Shown here one piece after another: positions 33,175-54,640 of a DNA stretch of 64,000 nucleotides (positions are counted from its first letter, which is position 1; each line of letters opens with the position of its first letter). The translations under genes were made by a program, and so were the position numbers. Origin of the DNA: Oligoflexia bacterium (GTDB lineage Bacteria > Bdellovibrionota_B > Oligoflexia > Oligoflexales > JAGOVF01); contig JAUILP010000003.1 in the NCBI GenBank assembly GCA_030432875.1, positions 1-64,000 on the forward strand, given 5' to 3'. Below the pieces are notes generated by a model. That model had not been told where the DNA came from and ran no database searches. It was given only the letters and a program-made list of their open reading frames with translations.

Positions 33175-33513
33175 TTAATTCCTAGAAAATAACTTTATCC
33201 AATCTTGTATCCATTTATTATTAATTTCACCTTCTAATACAGGGTTTGCAGCTTCATAGATGAATTTCTTTAACTCATTTGCAAATGCCTCTTCCAAAAT
33301 AATGTCATCTCGCCCTTCAATAATATTTGCCCAAAGTTCAAAATCAATTTTAGAAACCTTGCCGTCTAATAATGCTTGTAACGCATTAATCACATGGCTA
33401 ATTTGTAACTCGACAACTTCATTTGAGTCCCAAGGTAATTGAGATAATTTCTTATTTATGACAGCAAGAGGCTGCTGAAAAAGCAACAGTTGCTTTAATA
33501 ATTCCTTTCTCAT
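33175..33513 (-). CDS. Small cytosolic protein, candidate cognate immunity protein
   Basis: 112 aa, acidic, no signal peptide (ELQISHVINALQALLDGKVSKIDFELWANIIEGRDDI). 4-bp overlap with the 3' end of the toxin-like gene. Confidence 0.6.
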   Translation of the reverse strand: MRKELLKQLLLFQQPLAVINKKLSQLPWDSNEVVELQISHVINALQALLDGKVSKIDFELWANIIEGRDDIILEEAFANELKKFIYEAANPVLEGEINNKWIQDWIKLFSRN

Positions 33514-35084: not shown

Positions 35085-35097
35085 GGTCTGTGGCCTA

Positions 35098-36381
35098 TCA
35101 TTTCTTTTTACAGGTATCGATAATTTGTTTAAAGATCAGTTCCACATTTTGGAATTGTTCTAATGTTTTTGTTTTTTCAGCAGCAGCCTCGTGGCGTTCA
35201 ACCAGTCCGCGACAATTATCTCCATAGGCGTCAATATTCATTTTGAACATAGTGAGTAGTGACACTTGCCGTTCCAAAAACCCAGACCAGCCAGTATCTT
35301 CGATCTCTTTAATATTACTTAGTAGGAGAGATTTTTTTCCCGCCAAATCTTTAAGGAGCAAATCTCGAGCTGCAGCGGCACTTCCATTAAACAAGTTTAA
35401 TTCAATTTCAAATTCGGCAATTTTCCCTAAGTGCGCCCTAAGTATCCGTAAAGGAGACTGATACTGCAAATACATCGTATGGAGGCGATTAGCTAGTCCA
35501 TCACGGTTAATATCAAGCCACCAATTGCCGATATCATAAGTGACTTTTTCAAGGGCAAAAACTATAGATAAATCCTTAATGACTTTATCTAAAGACTCGC
35601 CTAAATTTTGGGCAAAACGTTCTTGACCTACTAAGAACAAAGCCTGATGGATTTTATTAAGAAGTATAGAGCGTTTTTGCTTCGCAATATTGATGTAATC
35701 TTTTAACCTGGTAAGTTGAAAAACTACTTCTTCTGCATTTTTTATGGCTATACTCAATTTATCCTTTACTTCTTGGTCACAGCTATTGCTAGTAAGAACT
35801 GCTGCAGATTTACCCAAGACCTGATGCAGAGCAGTGGCATTGAGTTGCATTTGATGCAGAAACTTCGCATCTTCTCGTGAAACCTCTGTTAGCATGGCTT
35901 GGGCTGCAACTAGGCCTACATTAATTTTTTTGTTGTGTTCCTGGAGTTCTTCAAGACTGCGAGGTGATCCAATAGCATTTAAGGATTGGGTCATAAAAGT
36001 TCTAATATCATTGAGCGCATGTAAATGAATCGCTTTAAGGGCATTAAAGTTGCCTTCGATGGAGAGATTAAACTCACCATCCCTCTTTGTTGATCCAATA
36101 AGCAATGGTAAATGGTCTTGATTGATTCCTCTAAAAGTCTCGATGGCACGGTTATAACTATTTAGGAGCAAATCGGCAGTTTCTATGCACTGAATTTTCT
36201 CACTGTACATACAGGTATCGAGCCCAACGGCCACTGCCGTATTATTTTCGATCATGTTGCGATCATGGCCGCCCTCTTCCGCCCATCGCCTGAAAAAGTC
36301 GCAATCAACAATGTCATTAGCTTCGAGATCAGGGGCTAATAGTATAGCTATACTTAAACTCATCAGACATAATCTAATCAT
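35098..36381 (-). CDS. Secreted helical protein, hypothetical
   Basis: Signal peptide MIRLCLMSLSIAILLAPDLEA, then a long helix-rich region with few recognisable motifs. Confidence 0.6.
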   Translation of the reverse strand: MIRLCLMSLSIAILLAPDLEANDIVDCDFFRRWAEEGGHDRNMIENNTAVAVGLDTCMYSEKIQCIETADLLLNSYNRAIETFRGINQDHLPLLIGSTKRDGEFNLSIEGNFNALKAIHLHALNDIRTFMTQSLNAIGSPRSLEELQEHNKKINVGLVAAQAMLTEVSREDAKFLHQMQLNATALHQVLGKSAAVLTSNSCDQEVKDKLSIAIKNAEEVVFQLTRLKDYINIAKQKRSILLNKIHQALFLVGQERFAQNLGESLDKVIKDLSIVFALEKVTYDIGNWWLDINRDGLANRLHTMYLQYQSPLRILRAHLGKIAEFEIELNLFNGSAAAARDLLLKDLAGKKSLLLSNIKEIEDTGWSGFLERQVSLLTMFKMNIDAYGDNCRGLVERHEAAAEKTKTLEQFQNVELIFKQIIDTCKKK

Positions 36382-36395
36382 TTTGCAAAGACCCT

Positions 36396-37292
36396 TTAAT
36401 GGTAAATTCCTGTTTCTGAAGCTTGGAGAGCTGCGTTAAGTTCAGACTTGAGCTTATCGAGTAATTTGATCGCGACGCTTTCTGTAAAACCAGCTCTGAG
36501 ATCAATGGCTTTAGAAATTTTTTCCAAAATCCAGTCATGTTCCTGAAGATATAGTGTTTTAAAGGCACAAAGCGCAGCTAGACTGCTGGGCGTACACGCT
36601 TTTAGCTCAGATTCAAGATCACCGCTCCAGGGGCATATCACATTATCAGCATCGTACTCTCGGTTAAAGGTAGCGAAATAGGCGTTTTTCATATCAAGAA
36701 TAATACCTGCAAGTGAGTAAGCATAAATAGGGTTACTCTCATAAGTAGAAATCATACAGGCCATAGACGGTTCTGCTCCTGCAGCGGCAATCATACTGGC
36801 CTGATAGCGAACTAATTTCTCTAAGTGTCCCGAAAGCTCATTTTCTATCTCTGAAACAAATGCTTTTATTTCATTGACGACTTTTGGCGAAAGCGTCGCG
36901 GCAATCAAATGAAAATCCAAAGAACAGTCGTTGAATTTTCTATAAAACAGAACATTGGGATTGTCATCACCGAGGATAATAGGGCCCATACCTTCTCCTA
37001 GGTTTATGACTTGATTTTTAGCCCCTAAAGTGAGGTAAAACTTTTGTCCTGAATCAAGGGCGAGAAATATATTTGATTGTTCCGGTGTAGGGTTATGGCG
37101 GTCACAGCTCAAAGAGTACGTTACTTCAAAATCTGAAAGATGTGCTTGTTTATCAAATATTATTCCCGTATTTACCTGGCATTCACTGAGAATATCTTTT
37201 TTGGTGTTGCATTGGATACTACCGGAAAACGCCCACTGACTCATAAAACAAGAAAAAAATAACGTTATGATTTTTAGAATATAGTTTCTCAT
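36396..37292 (-). CDS. Secreted protein, hypothetical
   Basis: Signal peptide ending WAFSGS. 14-15-bp gaps to both neighbours. Confidence 0.6.
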   Translation of the reverse strand: MRNYILKIITLFFSCFMSQWAFSGSIQCNTKKDILSECQVNTGIIFDKQAHLSDFEVTYSLSCDRHNPTPEQSNIFLALDSGQKFYLTLGAKNQVINLGEGMGPIILGDDNPNVLFYRKFNDCSLDFHLIAATLSPKVVNEIKAFVSEIENELSGHLEKLVRYQASMIAAAGAEPSMACMISTYESNPIYAYSLAGIILDMKNAYFATFNREYDADNVICPWSGDLESELKACTPSSLAALCAFKTLYLQEHDWILEKISKAIDLRAGFTESVAIKLLDKLKSELNAALQASETGIYH

Positions 37293-37307
37293 AAAAGCCT
37301 CTATTTG

Positions 37308-38021
37308 TTAGTGATAATTCCACCAGGATTCAATTTTCACGCGATGTACTTGGAATTTTCTGAGGTTTCCTCCTGTTAAGCCATTAATTGCTACTTCAAT
37401 TTCTTTTACGTTTCCATCGCAGATAAAAAGGGGAAATTTGATCTCTGCTTCATTTAACTGGTTGAAATTTTTTAGGGTATGGCTAAAGATCACTTTTTTA
37501 CCTGAATCAATAGCAAGTTCAATGTTAAAAGACGTCTCATAGTTACCGATGCTACGTTCTACGCATTTTCGAACCCCTGTCCACATGTTGTACTCATGGT
37601 GAGAGCAGTATTCATATTGCTCCGGTTCCCAGTCTGTAGAAATAGTTAGTGTAGGTTGCAAACCGACAGTTTTACCAGATACTTCATAATATGGCCCATA
37701 TAGCAGCCATCCTGGATTTGCTGGGCCACTATAAATCACACCATCACCGCTAATTTCACCAATATGTGTAAAAATCTCTTCAGAACTAAAAATTGCCGTT
37801 TCACCATCATCCCACTTAGACGGCTCAGGAGGAAGTACAACAAATTTTAAATCTGAGTGACTAGAACTTCCGCCGGGAGCGACAACGATGTTTCCGTGCC
37901 CAGAAACTCTAATAATATTTTCGTCTTTCGCCATTTCGCAATTGATGGCAAATAACGGTTGCGAATAAAATGGCAAAGTTAAAGCGAGTATCCCTAATAT
38001 ACCACGAAGTCCTTGAATCAT
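37308..38021 (-). CDS. Secreted beta-rich protein, hypothetical
   Basis: Signal peptide ending PLFA. Several Cys and aromatic residues. Confidence 0.6.
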   Translation of the reverse strand: MIQGLRGILGILALTLPFYSQPLFAINCEMAKDENIIRVSGHGNIVVAPGGSSSHSDLKFVVLPPEPSKWDDGETAIFSSEEIFTHIGEISGDGVIYSGPANPGWLLYGPYYEVSGKTVGLQPTLTISTDWEPEQYEYCSHHEYNMWTGVRKCVERSIGNYETSFNIELAIDSGKKVIFSHTLKNFNQLNEAEIKFPLFICDGNVKEIEVAINGLTGGNLRKFQVHRVKIESWWNYH

Positions 38022-38040
38022 ACGAGTCTCCTAAAAAAAA

Positions 38041-39501
38041 TTAATGTTCACTAAATATTAATGTCTTAGCATCTTCCGTAAGGGGATAAAATGTTTGTTG
38101 GTATTTGCTCAGCTCTGTTTCTACTTCATTTAATTTATATTTTTGAAGAGTAAACTGCCTCAGTAAAAATGGTGTTGAAACGCTAGAGCCCGAGATATCA
38201 ATAAACAGATCTCCACCGTATGGTACTATGAGTGAGGACCCATAATAATGGATGTCCACACATTTGCCATAATTTGAAATATCATCGATATAGTCATAAC
38301 CAACAGTAAAAACCCTAGTTTGACCAAACATGCAATTCGCATATTCTATTATGGAATTGGCTTCTGTACGGAAATGCCCCGCTCCTTGAAACAGAATTGG
38401 TAAGGTATGATTGGGGTTAGCGGCAAAAGTCTCCCTGCTATGAATGACGCGCAACCGCTCGAGCTGAGTGGCGAGGGTCCAGAGCTCCTTGAAGTTTTCA
38501 TTTAGGCAGCTTTTCATCTTTAAGGTGAGACGTATTTGATTGTAAGGTAAAAGAATGAAACTACGGTTTTCAAATTGCACAAAGTGTTTGATGTATAATG
38601 AGTTTGCTATCGTTTCTTTAAACGGAGAAGTACTGTTTACAAATGCGTCAATAAAATCCTGATCTTGATACAATTTGATTAAGTTATTTACCTTGTTGTC
38701 GCTAAGGCAGGGGATATTGGCATCTTTCGAAAGCACAAAATCATAATTTACCACCTCGGATTCAACAAGCACAAGCTGCACATTGGGATTGTTATAGGCA
38801 ATAATACCCGCGGTGGAAGTCCCATGTAGCATTATAGGTGAATTTTTGTCGGCGAGATTTTTGCAGAGCTGCATAACATCCTCGCCTAAGGTGGCAGTAC
38901 TTTCACACCATGAATGAACACCGAGTTCATCATGCAGATCTGTGCGTAGCTCTTTAGCCAGAACGGCATTATTAAATCGCTCTTTAACGTCTACAGATAG
39001 GTTATCGAAGGCATTTATGGCTTTGGGTTTAAATCCTGGCTCAATCTGGCATTCGTCCTGCGGAGCTTTAGTATAAAACTCAATGGCCTCTTGCTTGATC
39101 TCATCATAAGGTCGATCAAAGCTGAAATTATCAGCTTTTTCACCGACCATATCGCAGGACATTGTATAGCTAGCGATCACTTTATTAGCAAAAACAGGGT
39201 GGCGCGGATCAAACCCTGAATCAATCACGAGTACGGTTGTTTTATCGGGATCAAAGTCAGCATTGGCATAAAATGTATTAAGTTCCTTGGTTTTGGCATT
39301 TTTAAAATCAAATAAGGGATCAAGTGGGTTTTCAGCTGGATCTATATGGACAGCGTCACCATGATTTTTACTGCCACAGGCATGTAAGACTGGTAACGTC
39401 AGGGTCGCGAAAATAATAGTACGAAGATTCAATGACTCCTCCATTTTTTTTTGAAATTTAGGCACAAAGAAAAGGTCATTTTTCCCGTCTCTAAGTACCA
39501 A
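38041..39501 (-). CDS. S8 (subtilisin-like) serine protease, lipoprotein
   Basis: Triad motifs VLVIDSGFDPRHP (D), LHGTSTAGIIAY (H), ISGSSVSTPF (S). Lipobox PVLHACGSKN. The likely start is the internal Met MEESLNLRTII. Confidence 0.8.
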   Translation of the reverse strand: MVLRDGKNDLFFVPKFQKKMEESLNLRTIIFATLTLPVLHACGSKNHGDAVHIDPAENPLDPLFDFKNAKTKELNTFYANADFDPDKTTVLVIDSGFDPRHPVFANKVIASYTMSCDMVGEKADNFSFDRPYDEIKQEAIEFYTKAPQDECQIEPGFKPKAINAFDNLSVDVKERFNNAVLAKELRTDLHDELGVHSWCESTATLGEDVMQLCKNLADKNSPIMLHGTSTAGIIAYNNPNVQLVLVESEVVNYDFVLSKDANIPCLSDNKVNNLIKLYQDQDFIDAFVNSTSPFKETIANSLYIKHFVQFENRSFILLPYNQIRLTLKMKSCLNENFKELWTLATQLERLRVIHSRETFAANPNHTLPILFQGAGHFRTEANSIIEYANCMFGQTRVFTVGYDYIDDISNYGKCVDIHYYGSSLIVPYGGDLFIDISGSSVSTPFLLRQFTLQKYKLNEVETELSKYQQTFYPLTEDAKTLIFSEH

Positions 39502-39793: not shown

Positions 39794-40111
39794 TCAAATC
39801 CTCTTTGTTAACCACGTCAATATAAATTCTGGCGCTCTTTTCTGACCTAAAAAATCATAAATATCTAGTAAGCTCTCAAAGACATGAATCTGCTCATACC
39901 AGGGGAAATTGACATGTTTGATGTTTTCGTCATAGCAATCTCTAAAGGTGCTGCGACTACAATCAAATGTGCAGAATGCCGATGAAGTGTTGAGATGAAC
40001 GCTATGCTTATCAGTGGTCGTGATCGTTACATTTTCAAAAAAATGCAGCTGCATGATAACCCCATTTTTGGATCTCATGACGATCACATGCTTTAAGATT
40101 TCTTCGTTCAT
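39794..40111 (-). CDS. Small hypothetical protein in the AAA/VWA module
   Basis: 105-aa ORF overlapping the stop of the VWA gene by 4 bp. Confidence 0.45.
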   Translation of the reverse strand: MNEEILKHVIVMRSKNGVIMQLHFFENVTITTTDKHSVHLNTSSAFCTFDCSRSTFRDCYDENIKHVNFPWYEQIHVFESLLDIYDFLGQKRAPEFILTWLTKRI

Positions 40112-41544
40112 AATGAAGCCTTGCTCACAAGATTGGGCGATATGAGTCTTGGGAGATTTACGACAACCAGTTTCACCCGTGTATCTTTTTTCGCCTCTTC
40201 AAGACCTAAAACTTCTTCATCGGTAAAGTAATATATCGTGATAAGGTTTGTGGTATTGAGGTCTTTTAAAATGTAGTCATGGTGCTTTTCGGTCCAAACC
40301 GTTCCTCCGCGACCTTTAAATTTTATGCTTCCGCCCCTGACATTATCAATGGGGTGAATCTCTACGTCGCAGCAATAAGCCCGTTTGATGGCGTGTTTGC
40401 GCGTGAGTTGATAGGCGAGCGATGCCATGTGGTTAAGAACCTCAGGCATCCACATCGAGCCTGAGGTATCAAAAACGATGACAGAATCAGATTTGGGTTC
40501 ATGGACGCTTACTCTTTGGAGCCCGGGGAGTCCATCCAAAAATCGGTGAGGTAGGTTAAAAGACTTTTTTTCTGTATATTTCTGTCGTTTTCCCACACTC
40601 AGTGATTTTAAAATAAGAGAAATAATTGTTTTGATGGCTCGACTCAGTTCATTACGTGCCTTATAGACTTCTTCATAATCATTGGGGGCTGGTCCGTCAT
40701 GCTCAGCATGTTTTTTAAAGGTGGCTGCGGTCATACGCAGGCCTTCGTTCTCACTTTTTGCCAGGATAAGATCGATTTTGCCAAGGGCCTCTTCATTAAA
40801 TTCTTCGGCCCCTAAAGAAGAACGGGCCATTTGGTATAAAAGCTGTTTCTCAAGAATGAGCTTCGCAAATTCTGGTTCCCCGAGAATTCGTTCAGCAAGG
40901 TGTTTAACCATTTTGCGGGAGTAATATAGCCAGTCTTTACCGGGTTCGAGGCTAGTGTTTAAGAGTTTCTCAAGGAATTTTACGGTGACGAGGCCGATAT
41001 CTTCCCCAATTTTAATGCGTTTATTAAGGACCGCTTGTTCCGTCAGGAAATCATCCATTTGCTTAATGGAATCAGGTCCAAATAGCGAAACCAAATCTTC
41101 ATGAATGGCGGCATCCGCTGCCAGATTGAGTAGATCGTGCTTCAGGTCGAAATTGTCGCTGATATCGCCAATACCCGATTCCTGTAGCAGTGATTTAGGA
41201 ACCACGCTCCTAAGGGCATCTCTCACTTGGTTGAAGTTGATGAGATGATCCCAGTCGAATATCGTCTTCGTTTGGCTAACGTGACGAAGTTCATGCATGA
41301 GCAAAAAATACGTTAACTTATGGTTCTTCGCCCAGGATGCGAAAAAGTCCTTATTTACGAATATGAAAATTTGTTCTCTATGGCTTATTGCCGCAATAGC
41401 ATCTTGATCAGGAGCAAATACGAGTTTTACCTGAGAAAAAAGCGCCAGTGTGGAAAACATGTGCCTTTGCGTCAGCCAAGTCGCAAATCCCGCTCTTATA
41501 TCAAAAAGCTCGTTTTCTATCTGTGTGTTTAGGGTGTTTTCCAT
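40108..41544 (-). CDS. HExxH metallopeptidase-like plus VWA-domain protein (DUF2201-like)
   Basis: LLMHELRHVSQ (HExxH) and a C-terminal MIDAS-type SVIVFDTSGSMW. Confidence 0.75.
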   Translation of the reverse strand: MENTLNTQIENELFDIRAGFATWLTQRHMFSTLALFSQVKLVFAPDQDAIAAISHREQIFIFVNKDFFASWAKNHKLTYFLLMHELRHVSQTKTIFDWDHLINFNQVRDALRSVVPKSLLQESGIGDISDNFDLKHDLLNLAADAAIHEDLVSLFGPDSIKQMDDFLTEQAVLNKRIKIGEDIGLVTVKFLEKLLNTSLEPGKDWLYYSRKMVKHLAERILGEPEFAKLILEKQLLYQMARSSLGAEEFNEEALGKIDLILAKSENEGLRMTAATFKKHAEHDGPAPNDYEEVYKARNELSRAIKTIISLILKSLSVGKRQKYTEKKSFNLPHRFLDGLPGLQRVSVHEPKSDSVIVFDTSGSMWMPEVLNHMASLAYQLTRKHAIKRAYCCDVEIHPIDNVRGGSIKFKGRGGTVWTEKHHDYILKDLNTTNLITIYYFTDEEVLGLEEAKKDTRVKLVVVNLPRLISPNLVSKASL

Positions 41545-41550
41545 AATATA

Positions 41551-42630
41551 TTACCGTGACTGAAGTTTGCCAAGTTTGACGCAGTACCACTGCCAGGGCC
41601 TCGCAGGTGTTTCTATCGCCATTTCAATCGTGCTTCCTCTTGGTATATAGGTGAAATTCTCACCAGTTTTCTTCTTAGGGATGGCCGGATATACATAACT
41701 AAACCCATAGATTTGCATGGCCCGGCATGTTTCCGGAGTGGCATATTCGAGGAGGTACTGAGCTATGTACCTATGCCGATCGGGGTATTTCATTTGCTGG
41801 TTTAAAAACTGAGAAACTTCGAGAACTCCGCCTTTGTTTTCTGCTCGGGCGATGCGGGAAAATTCGTCTTCATTTATGTGTTCTGGTAGTAGCTTGGCGA
41901 TACCTGATAGACTGAGTTCTATTTTGACGGCGAGTTCAGTTCCCGCCTCAAGTCCCAGGCGTCCACGACAAACGCGGATAAGATCGTCGCCTCTTAATCC
42001 TGACTCAGCAAGAAATCCGCAAGCATCCAGTTGCCGAGGACTGGCTTTAAGCAAATCATAGATGGGAAACCGACTAGGATGACTCATGAGTTGCTTATCT
42101 TCATAAAGCAGTTTTTTGCTAAGGGGGCTTCTGAGGCATTCTATCGACTCCGGTGTTTCAGGAGCATGGATGAGATGGGTAAGGCGCTGCATAACTGCGT
42201 CGGGGAGTTCTCTCACGCCGCTATCTTCTTCCATAAAATTAGAAGCCGCAACGATCATCACATGCGGGGGAAGCTTGTGGCCAAAAACGCTGCGTTCTAG
42301 AAGAAGTTCTGTGAGGATATTAAAGGTCTCTTCCCGTGCCCGAGTGAGTTCATCAAAAAATAGAACCGTTTTTTTAGGAGCCTTAAATATATTGAATAGA
42401 GTTTCAGAGGGGTACATTTTTACGTACCCTAAACTTTTCATCTCTGCCGTAGAAGGTATGAAGAGGGCAAGGGGGTCAAGGTACTGGGCATGAAGGATGG
42501 TCAAATCAAAGTCATATTTTTTAGCAAATGCCTTAACCAAGCTGGTTTTGCCATAACCGCTTGATCCCCATAACATAAGGGGGAGTTTGGTTCGGTAGTG
42601 AGATAGAAATATTTTATTATAATCAGACAT
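41551..42630 (-). CDS. MoxR-type AAA+ ATPase
   Basis: Walker A LWGSSGYGKTSL, Walker B TVLFFDELTRA, and MIVAASNFMEEDSGVRELPDAVMQR. Confidence 0.85.
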   Translation of the reverse strand: MSDYNKIFLSHYRTKLPLMLWGSSGYGKTSLVKAFAKKYDFDLTILHAQYLDPLALFIPSTAEMKSLGYVKMYPSETLFNIFKAPKKTVLFFDELTRAREETFNILTELLLERSVFGHKLPPHVMIVAASNFMEEDSGVRELPDAVMQRLTHLIHAPETPESIECLRSPLSKKLLYEDKQLMSHPSRFPIYDLLKASPRQLDACGFLAESGLRGDDLIRVCRGRLGLEAGTELAVKIELSLSGIAKLLPEHINEDEFSRIARAENKGGVLEVSQFLNQQMKYPDRHRYIAQYLLEYATPETCRAMQIYGFSYVYPAIPKKKTGENFTYIPRGSTIEMAIETPARPWQWYCVKLGKLQSR

Positions 42631-42810
42631 TTACGCTTCCTTATCCTTTTTAATGGGATATTTCTTAGCCTACTTGAGTCCTTCGGTCAGTGCTGTGACA
42701 TTTGAGGTCAATGGGGACAAGTTTTTACTCATGACCTACGGTGTCAATGCCTATGCCGAGAGAGTTTTATGAGTGAGGATGCTGGAAAAAGAAAAAAAAG
42801 GGGGCACATA

Positions 42811-43206
42811 ATGATCAAAATGACAAATTTGAAAGTGATTTTTTGTGGGCTGTTCTTTAGTCTTGCTGCGCTGGGTCAGGCATTAGATTACCATCATGAT
42901 GCAAACAATTTTCGTTGTGTGAAGTATATCAAAAACTACGATGCCGATACCATTATGGTTGATGTACCTGAGGTGCATCCTATTATCGGCAAAAACGTGA
43001 GTGTACATGTAATGGGAATAGACGCCCTTGAAATCAAATCAAATTTTTGGGAATCATTCCGGTACCGTAAATTCATTTTTATCCATGCTGTTGAAGAATC
43101 AATTTCTTATTTTAAAAATCTCGCCCATATAATTTCGTGGATCTATCTAAAAATAGACTATATAATTCATAGTGCGCAATATGTCAGCTGTGAAATCGGA
43201 TACTAA
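42811..43206 (+). CDS. SNase-like (thermonuclease-fold) secreted protein, probably degenerate
   Basis: CVKYIKNYDADTIMVDVPEVHPIIGKNVSVHVMGIDALEIKS resembles the N-terminal half of an SNase domain. The expected C-terminal half is not recognisable. Start taken at the second Met (MIKMTNLKV). Confidence 0.4.
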   Translation: MIKMTNLKVIFCGLFFSLAALGQALDYHHDANNFRCVKYIKNYDADTIMVDVPEVHPIIGKNVSVHVMGIDALEIKSNFWESFRYRKFIFIHAVEESISYFKNLAHIISWIYLKIDYIIHSAQYVSCEIGY

Positions 43207-43759: not shown

Positions 43760-45478
43760 ATGATTTATAACATGATACTAAATATCAAATACTCCTGGCG
43801 GATTTTAAAATTTGCTTCCGTGTCTATCGCCGCTTTCTCAGGCATGGCTATTTCGAATATCTCATTTAGCGCACCAACGCCTTACCCGAAATCAGGTGCG
43901 TTACAAATCAGGAACCCAAGTTCTGCTGGGGTACTTGGTGACACCGATGACCAAAGACTTATTTGGGTGCAGCCACCCAATGTTGGTCTTAGCGCTTTTA
44001 GAAATTTTTCAGCCACCGCCAATATAAATAGTTGTGCCGGAGTAAAAAATTTACAGCTTGGATTCATAACAACCTCAAAAATTGTAGCTGATATGGCAGT
44101 GAAGAAAGTTGAGCTTCAAAAGGAAATTGATGCACAACAATCAAAAGTTGATACAGCACGAAGGGAAGTTGCTAGCCTATCATCAACTACGGATATGATG
44201 GAAATTGATGGTATGAATGATCGAATTGATATTTTGAAAAAACAGCGGATTGAAGTTATAAACCGTTACGAGGATGCTGAAGATGATCAGTTAAAAATAG
44301 AACTCTTTACTCAAATAAAAGACCTTAAAAACCAAATTAAGGAGCTAGAGTCAAAATATGATATATTAGCTGAGAATAATAGGACTGATGTACGCGCATT
44401 AAAGCGTGCTAAGGAAATCCTAAAATCAGAAGAGCAGATTCTTACCGATATCTATGCCCGCATGACCAAATTTGACGAACTCATTCTCAGCAATATGAAA
44501 AATATTCGCGAAGCTATGACCCCTTATGCCATGTTGCATGGTGGGGATGCTCTTCTCGAATATGATAGCCGATGGGGCGCAATAGTTAACGAATTACAAG
44601 AAATTAATCCTAATTATATATTCCGTAAGATCCCAACTGCCCACGCACGTTTGTACGCCAGTATCCCCGGAACGGCAAACAATCCTAATATGTTAGCTTC
44701 TCTTCCGGCTGTACTCGATTATACGATTTCAGGTATGAAACCTGCGGCGTTTGATAACACGATCGATACTAATTTGGCTGTACCGGAACTTGTATCAGGA
44801 ACTTTTTCTCTCAGTTTGATTGGAGCTTGTCCCGTATATTATCAAAATTTTACCGAAGGTACCGGTCTAGTCGTGGATAGAGATATGCAAGGACGCCCGA
44901 TGTTTGGTATTTCTATCTCCTATCTGCATCCCGTTTCTTATAGAACTGACCTTACAGCACGGTACAATATGTACAAATTCTATGAGCAAATTCATAAAAA
45001 GGGTAAAAAAGGTGGGTTCTTCAGTCGAAAAAATTATGAAGAAATGGTTCAGACAGATATCGGACGTGAAGACTTTGAAATCACGTGGGATATAGAAGAT
45101 CCAGATTCTAAACTCGATTTTGCGGCGCGAAGCGAGATAGAAAAAGAACTCAAGGCAGAAATCATTTCTCGTGCATTAGGTCAATATGGCGTTCCCGATT
45201 TAAGTCAGAACGCGAAAGCGATGCCACCTGCCGGTGAAGCGCCCAAAACTGCCGCCCAAGTTGCCGCAGATAGTATGGGATGGTGTCGCTGGGGTCTTTA
45301 TTGTCGCATTGCGGTCTGGGGGCTTTCTAATCTCGATGCTTTTTTTAACAATTCAAGTTCTTCCAGTTTCCGGTCTACCTACGACAGAAAAATCGAAGAA
45401 AAATTTAGTTCAACAGCGGCGATTTGGACGCCAGGGTTTATTGGGTACAAAAAGATATATGTATTGAAGAAAGGCTGA
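43760..45478 (+). CDS. Secreted coiled-coil protein, paralog A
   Basis: Signal-like N-terminus, then LIWVQPPNVGLSAFRNFSATANINSCAGVKNL, a long coiled coil, and CRWGLYC near the C-terminus. Confidence 0.65.
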   Translation: MIYNMILNIKYSWRILKFASVSIAAFSGMAISNISFSAPTPYPKSGALQIRNPSSAGVLGDTDDQRLIWVQPPNVGLSAFRNFSATANINSCAGVKNLQLGFITTSKIVADMAVKKVELQKEIDAQQSKVDTARREVASLSSTTDMMEIDGMNDRIDILKKQRIEVINRYEDAEDDQLKIELFTQIKDLKNQIKELESKYDILAENNRTDVRALKRAKEILKSEEQILTDIYARMTKFDELILSNMKNIREAMTPYAMLHGGDALLEYDSRWGAIVNELQEINPNYIFRKIPTAHARLYASIPGTANNPNMLASLPAVLDYTISGMKPAAFDNTIDTNLAVPELVSGTFSLSLIGACPVYYQNFTEGTGLVVDRDMQGRPMFGISISYLHPVSYRTDLTARYNMYKFYEQIHKKGKKGGFFSRKNYEEMVQTDIGREDFEITWDIEDPDSKLDFAARSEIEKELKAEIISRALGQYGVPDLSQNAKAMPPAGEAPKTAAQVAADSMGWCRWGLYCRIAVWGLSNLDAFFNNSSSSSFRSTYDRKIEEKFSSTAAIWTPGFIGYKKIYVLKKG

Positions 45479-45543
45479 GGCAATATTTTATTAGCCTGGT
45501 CTTTCCCTCTTTTAAGTTAACTAAGATTGAAGGAATTATTATC

Positions 45544-46431
45544 ATGAAGCTCATTTCTGGATACAGCTCAAGTTTATTCACCATTTTTGTCATATTGGTA
45601 GGTTGCGGCAATTCGTCCGGAGGTTCTGAAGTACCACCAGAAAATGACATCGTTGTTCCTCTGTCTGATCAGGTAGCGACCCATGAAGCATCGCTTTCAG
45701 AAAACCAGAGTTCGTCTAATAATTTTCCACAGAACTGGGTATTAAACGACATGGAATGGGTAGTCAGTCAGGACCTGGGAAAATTGCGAGCAACACTTAT
45801 AAATGATAAAGTCCTGATTAAGCGCGATAATTCAAATTGGTTGGCCTTAGACTGTGATCACATTAACAAGATGTTCACCCAGACATTAAAAACCATTACA
45901 GAAAAATGCTCATCAATAAGCGCTAAGAACCCGACCGCCTGTCAATTTGCTGCTTCAGGGATGTATGGGATAATCAAAGCGCCGGTGTATGTAACCCGAC
46001 CTACTTATCCATTTGATGTTGTAAGTTGGAATCAGGACACATGGAGCATGGATTTCACGTTACCCAAATATGAGAACGTTAGAGCAGATCTCGCTAAGAA
46101 ATTCGCTACGTCTGAATCAGAAATTTTTATCGATACTGCTATCCCGTCTGTATCAAATTGGCAAGATAGTTCAGTATCACTCATTTTCACTGACACCCAG
46201 AGAGAGCGAGACTTTGAGAAATTGCAATTTCTCCTTGATCACTTTGGTAAAGATGAAGAAAAGTTTCAAGTAAACGAGGCATTCTTCGAAAGTGATCAAT
46301 TAGTCACCACCAATCGTTTATTGAGTTGCGAGGTGATTTCTGGAGGTCTTCAATTTAATGTCACAGGGGGGTACGTGATAAACCAAACCTTAGGAGAAAC
46401 TGACCTAAATTTTCACTTTTATAGCAATTAA
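45544..46431 (+). CDS. Lipoprotein, hypothetical
   Basis: Likely start MKLISGYSSSLFTIFVILVGCGNSSGG (lipobox ILVGC) within track ORF 45424..46431. Confidence 0.55.
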   Translation: MKLISGYSSSLFTIFVILVGCGNSSGGSEVPPENDIVVPLSDQVATHEASLSENQSSSNNFPQNWVLNDMEWVVSQDLGKLRATLINDKVLIKRDNSNWLALDCDHINKMFTQTLKTITEKCSSISAKNPTACQFAASGMYGIIKAPVYVTRPTYPFDVVSWNQDTWSMDFTLPKYENVRADLAKKFATSESEIFIDTAIPSVSNWQDSSVSLIFTDTQRERDFEKLQFLLDHFGKDEEKFQVNEAFFESDQLVTTNRLLSCEVISGGLQFNVTGGYVINQTLGETDLNFHFYSN

Positions 46432-46433
46432 GG

Positions 46434-46970
46434 ATGTCACCTATGAAAAAAATAATTTTTTTGATGATTCCCCTAATATTTGCCATGGGGATTTGGATCA
46501 TCTTACCTAGTAACGATCCCATAAAGCAAGACACAATAAAAACGTTAAAAACGGAGAATAACAGTAAAGGCTATGAGACAAAGGAGTCCCAAACTACAAA
46601 TAATTCTATTCAATCTGAACAACAAAAATCTCCTATTGCCTTGAGTGAACCAACGGATAGTGATGTTGCTCCTCCCGATCAGCTAGAACGCATACGCCAG
46701 AATGAAGAGCAGTTACCTTTACTGGAAACCATGCGCCATTATTACTCTAGCTTTAGCGACGCAGAGATAGAACAAGAGCTAAAAGTCGTTAAAAATCAGC
46801 TCAATGATGATCAGTGGATAGCACGTGCTAACCGCGGAAATCTTACAAACCAAGAGAGTTTTGCGTTCCAGGAGCTTTTGCGGCGCCATGATGCACTGCA
46901 TTTAGAAAAAGCAGAACGCTCTTTGGAAAAAGCACAGAAATTGTTGTCGGAAACAGGAAAAAGTAGATGA
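46434..46970 (+). CDS. Membrane-anchored hypothetical protein
   Basis: N-terminal TM KKIIFLMIPLIFAMGIWIIL, then a disordered linker and a helical C-terminus. Confidence 0.5.
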   Translation: MSPMKKIIFLMIPLIFAMGIWIILPSNDPIKQDTIKTLKTENNSKGYETKESQTTNNSIQSEQQKSPIALSEPTDSDVAPPDQLERIRQNEEQLPLLETMRHYYSSFSDAEIEQELKVVKNQLNDDQWIARANRGNLTNQESFAFQELLRRHDALHLEKAERSLEKAQKLLSETGKSR

Positions 46971-46997
46971 ATCAAAAAAAGGCAATGAGGAATACTG

Positions 46998-48098
46998 ATG
47001 TCTAGCAAAAGTATAAAAAGCAGATTGCCCTGGCTAAGGATATTACCTCAATCTGCCATATTGATAACCTATTTATTTTTTAGCACGATGATTGTTGCAC
47101 AAGTTTCTTATGAAGTCATGCTTCGGGAGCCTCAATTACCAGCATTGAGTCTCACTAACTGGGAAAAGATTGATTGGCAGCAAAATAATAAAGTATGGAA
47201 TAATCTTTTAGACGGCATGTCAATTGAGCTTAAACAAGCCGAAACAGTTAAATCACGAGGCAACAATGCCTTAGAGTTTCAAGCACCGGACTTCGTCGAG
47301 GTTGAACCTGCTATAGATTTGGAGAGTTTCTGCGAGCGCGTTAACGCTGATTTTTATTTGCGCACTCGGTTGCTTGAAGTTCTTCGTGAGAAGGTGCAGC
47401 TCCTTAGTCAATATAGCCATAATTCCGACACAGAATTTGATTTTGTTAGATTAGTCGAAGAGGTGGCTGATCTCAGTCACGAAATCGAAGGTCTTTTCCC
47501 CAGTTTTTATCGGAATAAGGATTATGAACTCTTATATTTTTGGCAGCTCAAATCGCCCGATATTCCAGAATGGTTTAGAGAGTCAAAAAATGCACCCGGT
47601 TTATTCTCTATGGGTGATTCCATGTCATTGGGACATATAGTGGGTATTAGCATGGAGTACCTGTCGGTGGATGGATGGGAGTGGAGTGAGTTGCGCAGGG
47701 CGACATATCCAGAAGTATACGATTTTGAGGAGCCACAAGGGTTTGGGAGTATTATGATGCTAAAAAGAAAAGTCAGTCCTGTTGATCTTTGCCTGAGTCA
47801 GCAGAAGCTAAAATTTCGAGCAAAGGTGCACTGGGTATTCCAAAAGGCCTCTCCTATAGTCCCCGCGGATTGCTCGTTGCCAATAATCTCGATGAAGGCG
47901 GCGGCGTCGAGAATTCCCGATATTGGAGAAAATTTAGGAACCCCCATTCAAATTAAAATAAAACTTCCGGACTTTGATAGTCTAGGCGCGACACAGGATA
48001 ATTGTTCAATGGCATCAATGGCATCGCAAGTACGCTGGCAAAGTGCTTCTGATTTTTCTGGTGAAACCACGACAGTAGAAGAAGTAATAGGGTTATAG
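46998..48098 (+). CDS. Secreted hypothetical protein
   Basis: N-terminal hydrophobic segment (SAILITYLFFSTMIVAQ). Codirectional with its neighbours. Confidence 0.5.
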   Translation: MSSKSIKSRLPWLRILPQSAILITYLFFSTMIVAQVSYEVMLREPQLPALSLTNWEKIDWQQNNKVWNNLLDGMSIELKQAETVKSRGNNALEFQAPDFVEVEPAIDLESFCERVNADFYLRTRLLEVLREKVQLLSQYSHNSDTEFDFVRLVEEVADLSHEIEGLFPSFYRNKDYELLYFWQLKSPDIPEWFRESKNAPGLFSMGDSMSLGHIVGISMEYLSVDGWEWSELRRATYPEVYDFEEPQGFGSIMMLKRKVSPVDLCLSQQKLKFRAKVHWVFQKASPIVPADCSLPIISMKAAASRIPDIGENLGTPIQIKIKLPDFDSLGATQDNCSMASMASQVRWQSASDFSGETTTVEEVIGL

Positions 48099-48136
48099 TA
48101 ACTCAAAAAATTAAAATTTTGTAAAAGGATATATGT

Positions 48137-49810
48137 ATGATTGGCAAAAACCTCATTATGATGGCATCTAATCGAATAAAAATAATCGTCTTCTCAACTC
48201 TAATTCCGACAAGCCTACAGGCTGTTCCTAGCCCTTACGTAACGACCTGGCAGGAAAGTGGAATTATTAATAAAACAAGCGCTGTTCTCATTCGCGATAC
48301 GGTATCTGCAAAACGAATTTGGGTCATGCCGCCGAGCGTTGGTGAAGCTAAAGTGACCAATTTTACGCCGACGTCTGAAGTTCTGGGATGTAAGGGGTTT
48401 AAAAGTGCGCTCGAATCAATGAATGCGATTAATATCGTTATTGCCACTCGAGATGAGAAGTTAAGCGAATTGAGTAATAAACTATTAAAGCTGTATGATG
48501 AAAAAGCTGATTTAATTCGACTTTTGGAACAAAATAAAAATAATCCCGAATTAGAGAATCTCAGTAAACTCAGGGATAAGCGCTTGCGTTTAGAGGAAAA
48601 ACGCGACGATACTTTGGTAGAATTAAAAAACGAAACCAATGAAGAAATCAAGAAAGATTTACTGGAGACTTACAGGTCGATTAAAAAACAATTAGATCTG
48701 TTGGATGAAGATATTTTTAGTTTAGATATCAGTCTCTCAATAGTTACCGCTGAAATAAAAAGTCTAACTGAAAAAATTAAAAATCGAGACACGGAAATTG
48801 CTGAAATTAGCTCGCGTATTGAAAGCGCTAAGGCATCACTTAATGAGGCTCGAGAGTCGATTGTCGCGATAGTCACAGTATATAATTCACTGGATGCTGG
48901 TGTTATTAGCATGGACTATCAAAGTGGTTGGGTGAAAACCATAGCAGAGTTACAAAAGAATTATCCAGATTTTCAATTTGAACCGATTGAAACGCGGAAT
49001 GCCTCTATAATGCTAGCATTAGCTGGTGGAGATTCGGGAGTCAGTTCCGCCATTAACGGGGTGATTTCTTATTCCATAAACGGCCTAGCGGCTAAAAAGA
49101 GCTCTAATGGGGTAATACCACTACCAATGGTGCCTGACGCATTGGTGGGGGATTTTAATATTACTTTAAACTTGGCGTGTCCGATGCTTGATAAAGAAGG
49201 ATTCATCGATTCTATAGGCAAAGATGCAGAATTAGAAATTATATCTCCACGTTATGCCATGACCATGACCTATGAATTTCCGACGGTTTTTGCCGAGGAT
49301 ATGAGCGCAACGGTTGATCAAACGGTGGTCGAAAAAACAATTACCGACTACTTGACAATCTATAAGCCCTTAGAAAAAAAGATTGATGCAACTGATTATC
49401 CCTGGTTATTAGTGGCACTAAAGGAAAGTAAAGGTATTGAGTTTGCAGAAAGTAATGAAAAAGTTGATGGGACCTCTTCTTCCATGAATTACTTCGAGCA
49501 GGAGGTCCTGAATGACTATTTAGCCAGGGAGTGGCAGCCTGTCATCACAAGCTCTTTCGCGGCAATACCAGCTCAAAATAGCTACCTTCAGCAAGGAGTC
49601 ATTGTTCCAAGGGATATTACCCCCTGCAATTTTTGGTTCCAAGCTTGCAGTGCATCAGGTTGGCAACCAAAATTCAACATTCAGAACTATATTGAAGATA
49701 GCTTAGTTGAAAAAAATCAGATATTTGGCACTCCGCTCGTTAAAGAAACGGTTATCAAGACAGCAAATCGAGTTTCCTACCGACCAGGAGTGATTGCTTT
49801 TAAATATTAG
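48137..49810 (+). CDS. Secreted coiled-coil protein, paralog B
   Basis: RIWVMPPSVGEAKVTNFTPTSEVLGCKGFKSA mirrors the N-terminus of the 43760 protein. Coiled coil, then CNFWFQAC. Confidence 0.65.
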   Translation: MIGKNLIMMASNRIKIIVFSTLIPTSLQAVPSPYVTTWQESGIINKTSAVLIRDTVSAKRIWVMPPSVGEAKVTNFTPTSEVLGCKGFKSALESMNAINIVIATRDEKLSELSNKLLKLYDEKADLIRLLEQNKNNPELENLSKLRDKRLRLEEKRDDTLVELKNETNEEIKKDLLETYRSIKKQLDLLDEDIFSLDISLSIVTAEIKSLTEKIKNRDTEIAEISSRIESAKASLNEARESIVAIVTVYNSLDAGVISMDYQSGWVKTIAELQKNYPDFQFEPIETRNASIMLALAGGDSGVSSAINGVISYSINGLAAKKSSNGVIPLPMVPDALVGDFNITLNLACPMLDKEGFIDSIGKDAELEIISPRYAMTMTYEFPTVFAEDMSATVDQTVVEKTITDYLTIYKPLEKKIDATDYPWLLVALKESKGIEFAESNEKVDGTSSSMNYFEQEVLNDYLAREWQPVITSSFAAIPAQNSYLQQGVIVPRDITPCNFWFQACSASGWQPKFNIQNYIEDSLVEKNQIFGTPLVKETVIKTANRVSYRPGVIAFKY

Positions 49811-49876
49811 CTCTAGTCGAATCGCGTTTAATTTGTTAAAAGAAAGCGTTTCAAACTCATACAGCTCGGGTACCAA

Positions 49877-51052
49877 ATGCTATTTATGAAAAAAAAAAAT
49901 ACAATAATTTTTCTATTAACAGGGGCATTTTGGGGACTTCAGTCCAAAACAGGCTTTTGCCAATCAATGGATAGTTCCCTCGAAGAAATCAGTAAGCTAC
50001 CTCGTAAAGACGTGTTTCTAGACGGGGTAATGAATACTATTTTGGGGCAGGATCATCTCGTTAGCGGGACAGAACAGTTCCCGGTACCCCTAAAGCAAAA
50101 TACTTGTGACACGCTTTACACCTTGGTTGATAATTTTGCGCTCCAAATGGAACGCTGCAAAAATGGCTACTATTATTTTGCTGAAGAGCTTTATTGCACA
50201 GGTGATAAAGCTCAAAAAAGCAATATGGATTATATTAATAATATCTACGAAATGATCATCTATTACGCAATGAAGCAGCCAACTAGGTGGTTATGGTCGA
50301 TTGTTCCTGATGCTGGAAAATCTTTATCAATTGATAGTAAAAAAATCCTTATAAGCGAGTTAGCTCAGAACGCTCATATCCCACAAGATCATGTTTTCGT
50401 TTTTGATGCCCCTAATCCCTATACCTCCAAGGATGTTGGCGATGTAAAAGCAGTGTTCAAAACTAGTAACCCTGCCGCTAATAAAAGGTATGAATTCATT
50501 GCTGAATATTTCAAAACACATCCCAATCCTAAATATGACAATGATCCTAGAAAAGTAGACTTATTTTTTTCTAAGGCAGATCCCACACGACCAGTTTTTG
50601 TTACCGGGAGTGGTTTACAGTTTTGTGATTTGCTTGCGGGACATGGCTATATTGATGTTGAGTTTACCTGGAATACATTTACCCCTCATAGCCCATTGCC
50701 AAAGAAGATCGCCGCGGATATCTATAGCTTCAAAGAAACACTTGAGCATGAGTTAGGCGTCACTGCTTTTTTATCCCCGTCAGAGGCTGAACAGGCTGCT
50801 ATTGCAGGTTTTTTGGCAGGCCAGACCCTTGAGCAAGGTGGTCAATTCGAAGATGCGAACTTTAACTTCATATCCGACCTGGACATGGCGGCCTTATTTT
50901 CTGCCTTATTTTCTGGCGGTGAATCTAGCTCAGACTGGCTGTTCAATTCTTATTTTACGCAGGAGCAGGCAAAATATATCACAATGCCGCAACTCATGAA
51001 TTCACCAGCGGAAAAGCTTGTGTGGCGCTATCAATATAGTTCAATACCGTAA
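49877..51052 (+). CDS. Secreted hypothetical protein
   Basis: Signal peptide KKKNTIIFLLTGAFWGLQSKTGFCQ. No recognisable family. Confidence 0.5.
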   Translation: MLFMKKKNTIIFLLTGAFWGLQSKTGFCQSMDSSLEEISKLPRKDVFLDGVMNTILGQDHLVSGTEQFPVPLKQNTCDTLYTLVDNFALQMERCKNGYYYFAEELYCTGDKAQKSNMDYINNIYEMIIYYAMKQPTRWLWSIVPDAGKSLSIDSKKILISELAQNAHIPQDHVFVFDAPNPYTSKDVGDVKAVFKTSNPAANKRYEFIAEYFKTHPNPKYDNDPRKVDLFFSKADPTRPVFVTGSGLQFCDLLAGHGYIDVEFTWNTFTPHSPLPKKIAADIYSFKETLEHELGVTAFLSPSEAEQAAIAGFLAGQTLEQGGQFEDANFNFISDLDMAALFSALFSGGESSSDWLFNSYFTQEQAKYITMPQLMNSPAEKLVWRYQYSSIP

Positions 51053-51593
51053 TGTAAAGGTTATAACCGGCATGTTTATTCAGCAAAAAAAAGTCATATT
51101 GATGAGGGTTTTGATCGTCTGTTTCTCGTTAGGGGTAATGAGCTGCAATCACAGTAATGGACAGAAAACGACGATGCCGCCCTCTCCTCCGGCAACCCCA
51201 AATAATGATCCTAGTGACGACGACACCCTATCTCTCGGAGGAGAATCAGGGGATGGAGATGAAAATACCGAAATTCCCTCAACAAATACCGATTCGGATG
51301 CCCTAGAAACTAATCTGCTCGAGGATGAAACGAAAAACAAGGAAGGAGAGCAAGGAAAAACGCAACTAGAAGTTGGTGGTGGACAATTAAAACCGAATCT
51401 TAAAGATGGCTCCAACATCAATTCGTCAGATTCTCAATATCTTGCATTCAAAGCGTGTGTGCACTCAGCCTTGGACGGCACAATGGAGAACATAATGCTT
51501 AAAGAAAAACAGGAAGTTGGCGTTAGCTTCCTCTCTGTTGGCCGGAAGTGTAAAGGTAACACAATCGATTTGCTTAAAGTACTGCGCGAATGA
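51018..51593 (+). CDS. Lipoprotein, hypothetical (start uncertain, likely about 51071)
   Basis: Lipobox SLGVMSCNHSNGQ, then a Pro/Asp/Glu-rich disordered linker. Confidence 0.45.
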   Translation: MCGAINIVQYRNVKVITGMFIQQKKVILMRVLIVCFSLGVMSCNHSNGQKTTMPPSPPATPNNDPSDDDTLSLGGESGDGDENTEIPSTNTDSDALETNLLEDETKNKEGEQGKTQLEVGGGQLKPNLKDGSNINSSDSQYLAFKACVHSALDGTMENIMLKEKQEVGVSFLSVGRKCKGNTIDLLKVLRE

Positions 51594-51734
51594 GTAATCT
51601 TAGGCGATTAAAGGCTACCCTAATAGTTTTCAACCCCGTTTCGGCTTGACATGTATTATCTCTTCAAATAATTTATATCCTGTAAATTCGGTTTGTAGAA
51701 GAAAGATCCTAATAAAAACTGAGGCAGGGATTGT

Positions 51735-52532
51735 ATGGCTATTGGTACATTGATTGGGGAACTGCAAGACATTTATAATAAATGGAAAGAGGGACAGAGT
51801 ACTCGTTCATTTGCTGAACTGTCACGCCGCACTGGAGTGGGGTATTTTGATACCCGTCGGACTATCCAAGGTGAGATTTCTCCAGCATTTAAAAATGTTG
51901 CTCCGCTCTTAGAAGCAATGCTCCCTAGTGACGAGGTCCTAAAATTCTACGAAAGACACTACCCATCAGAATATGATCTCATCAATAAGATGGTTGCGCA
52001 GCAGACTAAAAACCAAAATCAGTCAGAAAAAATGAACTTTCTAGACGATGAATACATGCAGCTAATTGCTGATCCTTTTTATTTTCCCGTAATTGCCCTC
52101 CTCGCGTGCTACGGCGATGATGGAATCGACCAGTCACTTATAAAAGAGCAGCTTGGCAATAGTGGGATGCTCGCAGTTGAGCAGTTGATTGCTAGGGGAA
52201 TTGTAAAAATAACTCCTAAAAATGAGGTTACTTTAACTAACTACAGTATAACAAATAATACGCGGCACATATTAATGATGCTTGAACAGGCAACTCGGTT
52301 GATGACTTCAAACCCCAAAGTTTTTGCTTGCATTGGGTTTGATAGGGTAAACCAGTCAACCTTAAAAATAATTTTTGAAATGATCAAAGATACGGAAGAA
52401 AGAATTCTGTCCCTGCTCAAAGAGAAGAGTGCCAAAGGAGATATACCGATAAACTGGGGTGCAATGATAGCTCGTGTTGGCTCATACCCAAACAGCAATC
52501 TTTCACAACTTAAGTCTGGCGAAGGTGAATAA
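51735..52532 (+). CDS. HTH-type regulator, TIGR02147-like
   Basis: RSFAELSRRTGVGYFDTRRTIQGEISPAFKNVAPLLEAML HTH, and ADPFYFPVIALLACYGDDGIDQSLIKEQLGNS. Confidence 0.5.
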   Translation: MAIGTLIGELQDIYNKWKEGQSTRSFAELSRRTGVGYFDTRRTIQGEISPAFKNVAPLLEAMLPSDEVLKFYERHYPSEYDLINKMVAQQTKNQNQSEKMNFLDDEYMQLIADPFYFPVIALLACYGDDGIDQSLIKEQLGNSGMLAVEQLIARGIVKITPKNEVTLTNYSITNNTRHILMMLEQATRLMTSNPKVFACIGFDRVNQSTLKIIFEMIKDTEERILSLLKEKSAKGDIPINWGAMIARVGSYPNSNLSQLKSGEGE

Positions 52533-52533
52533 T

Positions 52534-53127
52534 ATGAAACAGTTTATTAAAAAAATAATTTTTATTGTTGGCACATCCCCTCTTTCAACCTTTGCTCTTG
52601 CGGGAGGTCTCGGAGGTATGGGCGGCTCACCCTTGGCTAATTGTTTTCAAGACTCTACATTTGTCTTTGAGTCAATGGATTCAAATAAAGATTTTTCTAT
52701 AAATCCCTGGATAATTGTTCCCGATGAGATTGGAATGGACGTTACCACGGAAAAGGGATTTAAGGATCTGGTAGGGGTAGTGTCCCCAGATACCTTTGCT
52801 GCTTTGAAGGACGTGTTCGCAAAAAGTAGCGAAGAAATAGCAGTCAGCACTCCCCAAAATAATAGTTTTATGAATGCGTTAAAAGTTAATGAGTTTAACT
52901 ATTATGCAAATCCCGATGAAATCGAACTTGTCTTAGAAAATAATGCGGCGATACATCTTACCCCGTTTGTCATGCCCGATCTGAATTCTTTAGGGGGTTT
53001 GGGAAGTGGAGGTATTCCAAGTTTTGGCGGAAGCAACCCTTCGCAAACTGATTTGAGTATTAGCTCCGGTTGTGCAAGTATGCCATCATTTGAGGTAGTT
53101 GATATTGCCTCTTTTTTTAATAAGTAA
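52534..53127 (+). CDS. Secreted Gly-rich hypothetical protein
   Basis: MKQFIKKIIFIVGTSPLSTFALA signal peptide. ATG lies 1 bp after the preceding stop codon. Confidence 0.55.
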   Translation: MKQFIKKIIFIVGTSPLSTFALAGGLGGMGGSPLANCFQDSTFVFESMDSNKDFSINPWIIVPDEIGMDVTTEKGFKDLVGVVSPDTFAALKDVFAKSSEEIAVSTPQNNSFMNALKVNEFNYYANPDEIELVLENNAAIHLTPFVMPDLNSLGGLGSGGIPSFGGSNPSQTDLSISSGCASMPSFEVVDIASFFNK

Positions 53128-53156
53128 ACATGGCTTTATTTAAAAAACATTATGAG

Positions 53157-53178
53157 AACCCTAGTAAATGCTAGGGTT
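53157..53178 (+). terminator. Rho-independent-like hairpin
   Basis: AACCCTAG-TAAATG-CTAGGGTT followed by TCTTAATTTTTATTT. Confidence 0.6.
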
Positions 53179-53308
53179 TCTTAATTTTTATTTGCTATTC
53201 CCCCTACCTAAAAAATAATCAACATTTGGGTTGATAGGTTCTTCTCAGGCTTCATGGTTCGTATAATTCAAAAAGCTTGTGATTGTATTATTACTCTGAA
53301 AATGTGGG

Positions 53309-53699: not shown

Positions 53700-54640
53700 T
53701 GAGTACCTCACTTACTGAATTTTTTTTAATTTTCGTGCCATGCGTTCCGCGGAATTATTTGTGTTCTCAAATCGCTCACCCAAGAAAATAAGTTGAAAGT
53801 GATGCAAATAGTTCCCCGGTCATTCGGCTATGAAATCTCTTTAAAGGCTTACAATTTTCATCTAAATCACTTGACGCAAGTTTTTGCCATTTTTCTTTTG
53901 CTACTCTAACATCTGATTGCCTGTCTTTTTCAGAAGTCCACCATATTGAATGCCATTCCTCAATAAATTTGCGTATTGGAGCCAGATTAGGCCCGAGAGG
54001 TGAGCCTAAAACTTCCATATAATGTTCTTGCCACCGTTCTTCTCCAAATTTTGTTCGGCTTGAAACTCCGTATGATAGTTTTTTTAATGCCTTACTAACT
54101 TTTGTTACTTGATCCCAACTCTCCCAACCTGAGCTCAATTCTATATTTTTAGTTTTAGATATTGGCTGATTTTGTAAACTTAACCCAAGTTCCCTAATAT
54201 CTTTCATGCTAAGAGTTTTTCTTTAACAAGAAACCCAACCAGGGAATCTGAATTTTGGGGACCTGCGGCAATGATAATTGCTATGGAACCACTATAGGCT
54301 TCATCTACACATAAAATACCTGAAAATGAATCTACAATGGAGCCGGCGACAAAATCGTTCGCCACTAATTCAGAGCCTGCTTCTCCTGGCCAGTTCCTAA
54401 TTGTAGTTTCAGATGGCCGGATACCGAAATCCCGACTAAGTCTGTGAGGTACCCTAGAAATCGGCATGCCATCTTCAATAACCGAAGCAATAGCTACATT
54501 GACCACCCTATTAGTATATGTTGAGCTGGGCCTAGGAAATTCAGCTGATTCCGAAAAATTCCTTCCACAAGAGATGCATAAATATACCCCTACATAACCA
54601 GAGAGCAGGGAGCGGGCATCAGCACAGCAATCCAAAGCAG
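53700..54640 (-). pseudogene. Decayed transposase-like gene in at least three frames
   Basis: ORFs 54204..54635 and 53776..54207 overlap at ATGA. A +1-shifted frame continues as GERFENTNNSAERMARKLKKI, similar to transposase C-termini. Confidence 0.5.

Follow-up and report, generated by a model that had tools for sequence, protein, structure and literature searches.

Nine codirectional genes at positions 43760 to 53127 of a contig from an Oligoflexia bacterium raise the question of whether exported proteins with no familiar domains can be recognized as the parts of one assembly. The stretch analysed, called the window here, comprises the first 64,000 nucleotides of contig JAUILP010000003.1 (G000:C63), from a 4.0-Mb genome of 191 contigs. 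A preliminary description, made from the window sequence, had noted eight codirectional genes and proposed one extracellular or envelope assembly; the shared orientation was confirmed, while the open reading frame (ORF) list gives nine genes, named here P1, B1, C, D, P2, E, F, R and G, all on the forward (+) strand. Our results showed that P, B and their neighbours form a co-inherited, compact and codirectional operon with a patchy distribution in Oligoflexia and Bdellovibrionota. We consider the chances about even that this P–B–C–D–L cassette encodes a multi-protein cell-envelope complex, probably located at or reaching the cell surface.

Organization of the cassette

The cassette consists of a coiled-coil/beta protein (P), a Cys-containing protein (B), a membrane-anchored helical protein (C), a second Cys-containing protein (D) and a small two-Cys lipoprotein of 80-125 aa (L), which in the Bdellovibrionota group usually follow one another in the order P-B-C-D-L. 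Conserved Cys residues occur in the P, B, D and L families. Export signals are present on P, B and D, C has a transmembrane (TM) anchor, and a lipobox is found on L and, in some lineages, on B or D.

The window holds an expanded form of this arrangement, P1–B1–C–D–P2–E–F. P1 (43760-45478, 572 aa) contains a signal peptide, a short beta segment, a helical region at residues 87-257 and a beta-rich C-terminal region with conserved Cys, and it has the VxPPxxG motif of the family. With profiles built after leaving out the window genome and its nearest relative, P1 was recovered at E=4e-118, its diverged paralog P2 (48137-49810, 557 aa) at 1e-57, C (46434-46970, 178 aa, with an N-terminal TM anchor and a conserved helical C-terminus) at 7e-19, and D (46998-48098, 366 aa, exported, with two conserved Cys) at 3e-11. 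B1 (45544-46431, 295 aa; ORF listed from 45424) is a putative lipoprotein whose match to the wider B family is marginal (hhalign probability 18%), and it was assigned by its position and by an ortholog at the same position in G021, a genome of the same family. The exported protein E (49877-51052, 391 aa) was recovered by the leave-out B profile at 1.2e-5, with an hhalign probability of 61% against a B family from which E itself was removed; it is probably, on weak support, a second B-type protein, and the P2-E pair looks like an expansion of the five-gene cassette. F (51102-51593, 163 aa; ORF listed from 51018) is a putative lipoprotein that stands where L does in other loci. It has a lipobox and a pair of spaced Cys, and it was placed by position and Cys spacing; a profile of the mature L domain did not find it, so membership of F in the L family is unsupported by sequence.

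The starts of B1, F and G were shifted to the Met preceding a good export signal. Reading by eye gave cleavable signals for P1, D, P2, E and G, lipoboxes for B1 (best start 45544) and F (best start 51102), and a TM anchor for C, which bears out the earlier remark that signal peptides, lipoboxes or TM anchors are near-universal in the cluster.

Distribution and co-inheritance

Iterated profiles over 40 loci collected 53 members of P, 36 of B, 20 of C and 16 of D. Among the 52 genomes of the window's group, strong P matches were found in 8 and weak matches in a few more, and B was present in exactly those 8. In the Bdellovibrionota group (325 genomes), P was found in 37 at E<1e-10, a count made from the search listing, the weaker matches there being mostly SMC-type coils; B was found in 28 at E<=1e-5, 27 of which carry P. 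Although neighbours of P were the source of the B profile, the lack of B matches in nearly all of the remaining genomes is informative. About ten P-bearing genomes lack B by this profile, and at one locus (L108) another protein occupies the B place; where both are present, B lies next to P. Pseudobacteriovorax, other genomes of the Oligoflexia group and metagenome-assembled genomes (MAGs) of Bacteriovoracaceae carry P and B, mostly with the small lipoprotein, C and D, and G021 keeps the order P1-B1-C-P2. The scattering among relatives that the preliminary description had named as evidence against its proposal was thus not seen. Its proposal of a single assembly holds for the envelope genes, which form a conserved neighbourhood with near-strict co-occurrence of P and B; R and G look separate.

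It is possible, if somewhat doubtful, that these proteins are instead secreted or surface products, such as adhesins, matrix proteins or effectors, which act separately and share an operon for the sake of common timing. Export signals on nearly all of the proteins are consistent with this, as is the variation of the parts between lineages, since G021 lacks D, E and F and some loci of the Oligoflexia group hold only P, B and C. However, B almost never occurs without P, a stricter dependence than independent products predict, and the small, membrane-anchored, helical C has no evident stand-alone role.

In two genomes of family f12, P is split into two reading frames (L054:8879-10578 and L050:9618-11318), and both genomes have an intact P elsewhere.

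Paralogy and duplication of P

P1 and P2 are true paralogs, as had been proposed for the 572-aa and 557-aa proteins. BLASTP aligned 401 aa at 26% identity (E=1e-25), in agreement with the leave-out profiles, and the two genes lie 2658 bp apart, matching the 2.7 kb given earlier. The motifs IWVxPPxVG...NF...C, ELQxxxPxxxF and ACP are common to both proteins as described, whereas the C-terminal CxxxxxxC is found only in P2 and corresponds to C-x5-C in P1. Across 48 P relatives, C92 and C357 (the Cys of the ACP motif) are invariant, and V70, P72, Y388, C509 and C515 are nearly so; the paralogy therefore does not depend on the coiled coil.

In the P tree, which has long branches and should be read with care, P1 and P2 each pair with their own G021 ortholog (E=1.1e-97 for P2), and the grouping of P1 with P2 has modest support (81/77). 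The tandem P copies of the Bdellovibrionota-group loci L108-L112, L114 and L116 fall in other clades, and orthology of P2 to the upstream members of these Bdellovibrionota pairs was rejected by a topology test (p-AU, the approximately unbiased test, 0.0004). Tandem doubling of P therefore probably arose more than once, with the duplication that gave P2 separate from the similar one in Bdellovibrionota. Such repeated doubling hints that two versions of P work usefully together, and the duplication of P and probably B in the window lineage (P1-B1 and P2-E) suggests a hetero-oligomer.

A third P copy lies on contig C140 of the same genome (E=5.8e-15 with a profile that does not contain this copy). 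It belongs to a second related cluster (L046, G000:C140:1-15000), which contains 669-aa and 682-aa paralogs, an R-G pair, a 514-aa protein, two small TM proteins, the third P itself (500 aa), a lipoprotein and a 213-aa protein; a similar set is present at L056. Homology of the 649-682-aa proteins of this second cluster to P was unsupported (probability 4.7%).

The R–G module

R (51735-52532) encodes a 265-aa helix-turn-helix (HTH) regulator, and G (52534-53127), which starts after a gap of 1 bp, encodes a 197-aa exported Gly-rich protein. R had been called a TIGR02147-like regulator abutting a secreted-protein gene. The 1-bp gap and a distant kinship held, whereas the family models were not passed: R is absent from the PF14394 matches of its own genome and gave no NCBIfam match to TIGR02147. 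Aligned with the DUF4423 proteins of its own genome, R reached an hhalign probability of 96.7% (E=3.9e-10, 204 columns), by which it appears to be distantly related to the TIGR02147/DUF4423 regulators.

The genome has six further R-like matches. In at least four cases, on contigs C140, C106, C132 and C13, the next gene, immediately after R or slightly overlapping it, encodes a small secreted protein, mostly Gly-rich. Because such pairs recur elsewhere, R-G appears as a dispersed two-gene module that abuts the cassette, and it is probably a separate regulator–secreted-protein unit rather than a cassette part. We regard it as unlikely that all nine genes form one unit in which R controls P1-F and G supplies a further subunit. 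R-G does adjoin both P clusters of the window genome, and genes for DUF4423-like or other HTH regulators stand next to P at L048, L062, L101 and L103, but the R-like and secreted-protein genes on C106, C13 and C132 have no P nearby, G021 has P1-B1-C-P2 without R or G, and a gap of 141 bp separates F from R. The repeated pairs on C106, C13 and C132 (L127, L128 and L129) encode Gly-rich proteins in two of the three cases.

The hairpin said to end the cluster was located downstream of G at 53156-53179 (+ strand), with a 10-pair stem and a T-rich tail. It is a terminator-like consensus match, and such matches in the region are not commoner than in shuffled sequences (5 vs 9.1).

Sigma-54 sites upstream of P

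Promoters were examined with a simple -24/-12 score that has a maximum of 20.9 and weights chosen in this analysis. Near-consensus sigma-54 sites (e.g. TTGGCACAAATATTGCT) precede P, in most cases at a distance of 50-180 nt from its annotated start, at L017, L047, L057, L061, L063, L098, L100, L106, L107, L109, L110 and L111. When only genes preceded by a gap of at least 60 bp were compared, a score of 18 of 20.9 or more was reached by 10 of 36 P genes and by 6 of 313 other genes (Fisher p=2e-7, an enrichment somewhat inflated by related loci). Genes with a sigma-54 activation domain occur near P at L061, L104, L106, L107 and L111, SBP_bac_5 proteins at L055 and L112, and a histidine kinase at L061. 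From these sites, transcription of P looks sigma-54 dependent, and hence inducible, in many relatives.

The Bdellovibrionota group is known for its predators. That the cassette serves specifically for predation or attack on a host is nevertheless quite improbable as a general account: Bacteriovoracaceae MAGs and other Bdellovibrionota-group genomes carry it, and sigma-54 control would permit induction by contact, but with P in only 37 of the 325 genomes, predation in general does not require it.

The flanks of several P operons were also inspected. Sigma-54 activator, histidine kinase and solute-binding-like genes lie beside those at L061:2564-9536, L104:1804-7691 and L017:15255-19833, together with radical-SAM-like genes (L061 and L017) and small secreted peptides (L104), which could make up a system for an external signal.

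Structural model and comparison with known families

The AlphaFold2 model of P1, made from 8 sequences, has a mean predicted local distance difference test (pLDDT) score of 63. Four helices at residues 87-257, mostly with pLDDT of 85-95, are flanked by strands, and the remainder is uncertain; the helices may be read as a hairpin with kinks near residues 143 and 207. Modelled alone, the C-terminal part reached a pLDDT of 51.

None of the nine proteins matched Pfam or NCBIfam significantly, apart from SMC-type coiled-coil similarity. The P1 model gave no Foldseek match at E<=0.001 in the PDB or among viral models; the P profile matched only coiled coils in PDB sequences, the B profile nothing convincing, and PHROGs and PADLOC returned only weak matches to the coil region. 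Beyond the coiled coil, then, no structural component of the cassette matched Pfam, NCBIfam, PHROGs, PADLOC or PDB, and no description of the operon was found in the open-access literature searched. An origin from phages, plasmids or defence systems was rejected, as there was no match in viral contigs, in plasmids (P2 query) or in phages (query with a P relative). The cassette is without recognized kin and hence may be of a new kind, although a known fold may hide behind sequence divergence in the poorly modelled beta part.

Among known systems, the mosaic adhesive trimer (MAT) fibres of Bdellovibrio bacteriovorus are large trimeric beta-helix proteins, whose solved members have about 920-1150 aa (PMC10769870), and 13 of 21 MAT proteins contain an S74 domain (PMC10769870). 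Like P, they belong to exported proteins from this group of bacteria that are thought to work at the cell surface, and they have a beta-rich part after the signal peptide. P differs in its size of about 410-650 aa, its long helical region and its fixed partners, and no S74 model was found for P1, P2 or among the 25 families listed for 48 members, the beta parts being weakly modelled. SMC-like proteins, including JetC and LmuB of defence systems, share with P only the coiled coil (P residues about 86-267), whereas P1 and P2 lack an ATPase head and are exported, with signal peptides at the start. That P is a periplasmic adaptor of the HlyD/EmrA (membrane-fusion-like) type in a trans-envelope export system, with a helical hairpin splitting a beta domain, is very improbable: the order of strand, long helices and strand fits, with beta parts of low confidence, and EmrA is among the weak matches, but that match is at the level of the coil (fold E=0.11), no adaptor Pfam model was found for P1, P2 or in those 25 families, P has conserved Cys, and no transporter or ATPase was recognized as a constant neighbour.

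The proposed envelope complex

The envelope complex proposed above is based on the conserved order and orientation of the genes, the co-occurrence of P and B, the family profiles, the conserved Cys, the helical region of P, and the enrichment of sigma-54 sites together with the nearby activators. Several points weigh against it. The G021 copy does without D, E and F, so not every part is always needed; B1, E and F match their families weakly or are placed just by position; and the beta part of P is modelled poorly. In addition, P1 of the window lacks a sigma-54 site, with a best score of 11.5 of 20.9, which makes such sites a property of the P family and not of the window copy.

In such a complex, the P helices would form an antiparallel coiled-coil hairpin, with about 80 residues per arm, that projects from a disulfide-stabilized beta base. 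C may anchor the assembly in the inner membrane and the lipoproteins may tether it to the outer membrane, with P, B and D building the periplasmic or surface part. Because neither an energy-coupling enzyme nor a catalytic motif was recognized in the cassette, a structural or binding role, as in attachment, scaffolding or envelope spanning, is more likely than a catalytic one.

A more specific form of this proposal, which we rate as fairly unlikely, is an undescribed kind of structure, at the surface or across the envelope of Bdellovibrionota and Oligoflexia, whose construction would be triggered through sigma-54 activators by a signal from outside the cell, perhaps a peptide. The part played by a signal is suggested, with the same low confidence, by the genes for solute-binding proteins and histidine kinases that adjoin those activators in several lineages.

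The cassette is a co-inherited gene set whose structural components, coiled coils aside, matched no family in the databases named above, and its carriers belong to bacteria of interest as predators and host associates. Should it specify an inducible surface or trans-envelope assembly, it offers a concrete target for deletion and localization studies of how the envelope is built and regulated.

Genes flanking the cluster

Upstream of P1, a 145-aa exported ORF at 42769-43206 contains the sequence DADTIMVDVP...MGIDALE, reminiscent of SNase-type nucleases; the ORF is perhaps a remnant, and it had no Pfam match. Further upstream, the minus-strand pair at 40108-42630 resembles by appearance genes for a MoxR-type AAA ATPase and a VWA-domain protein. 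A minus-strand run of six genes at 33175-39501, several with export signals or lipoboxes, forms an uncharacterized exported-protein cluster 4 kb from P1. Downstream, two minus-strand ORFs that overlap and are both 143 aa long (53776-54635) resemble pieces of a transposase-like gene.

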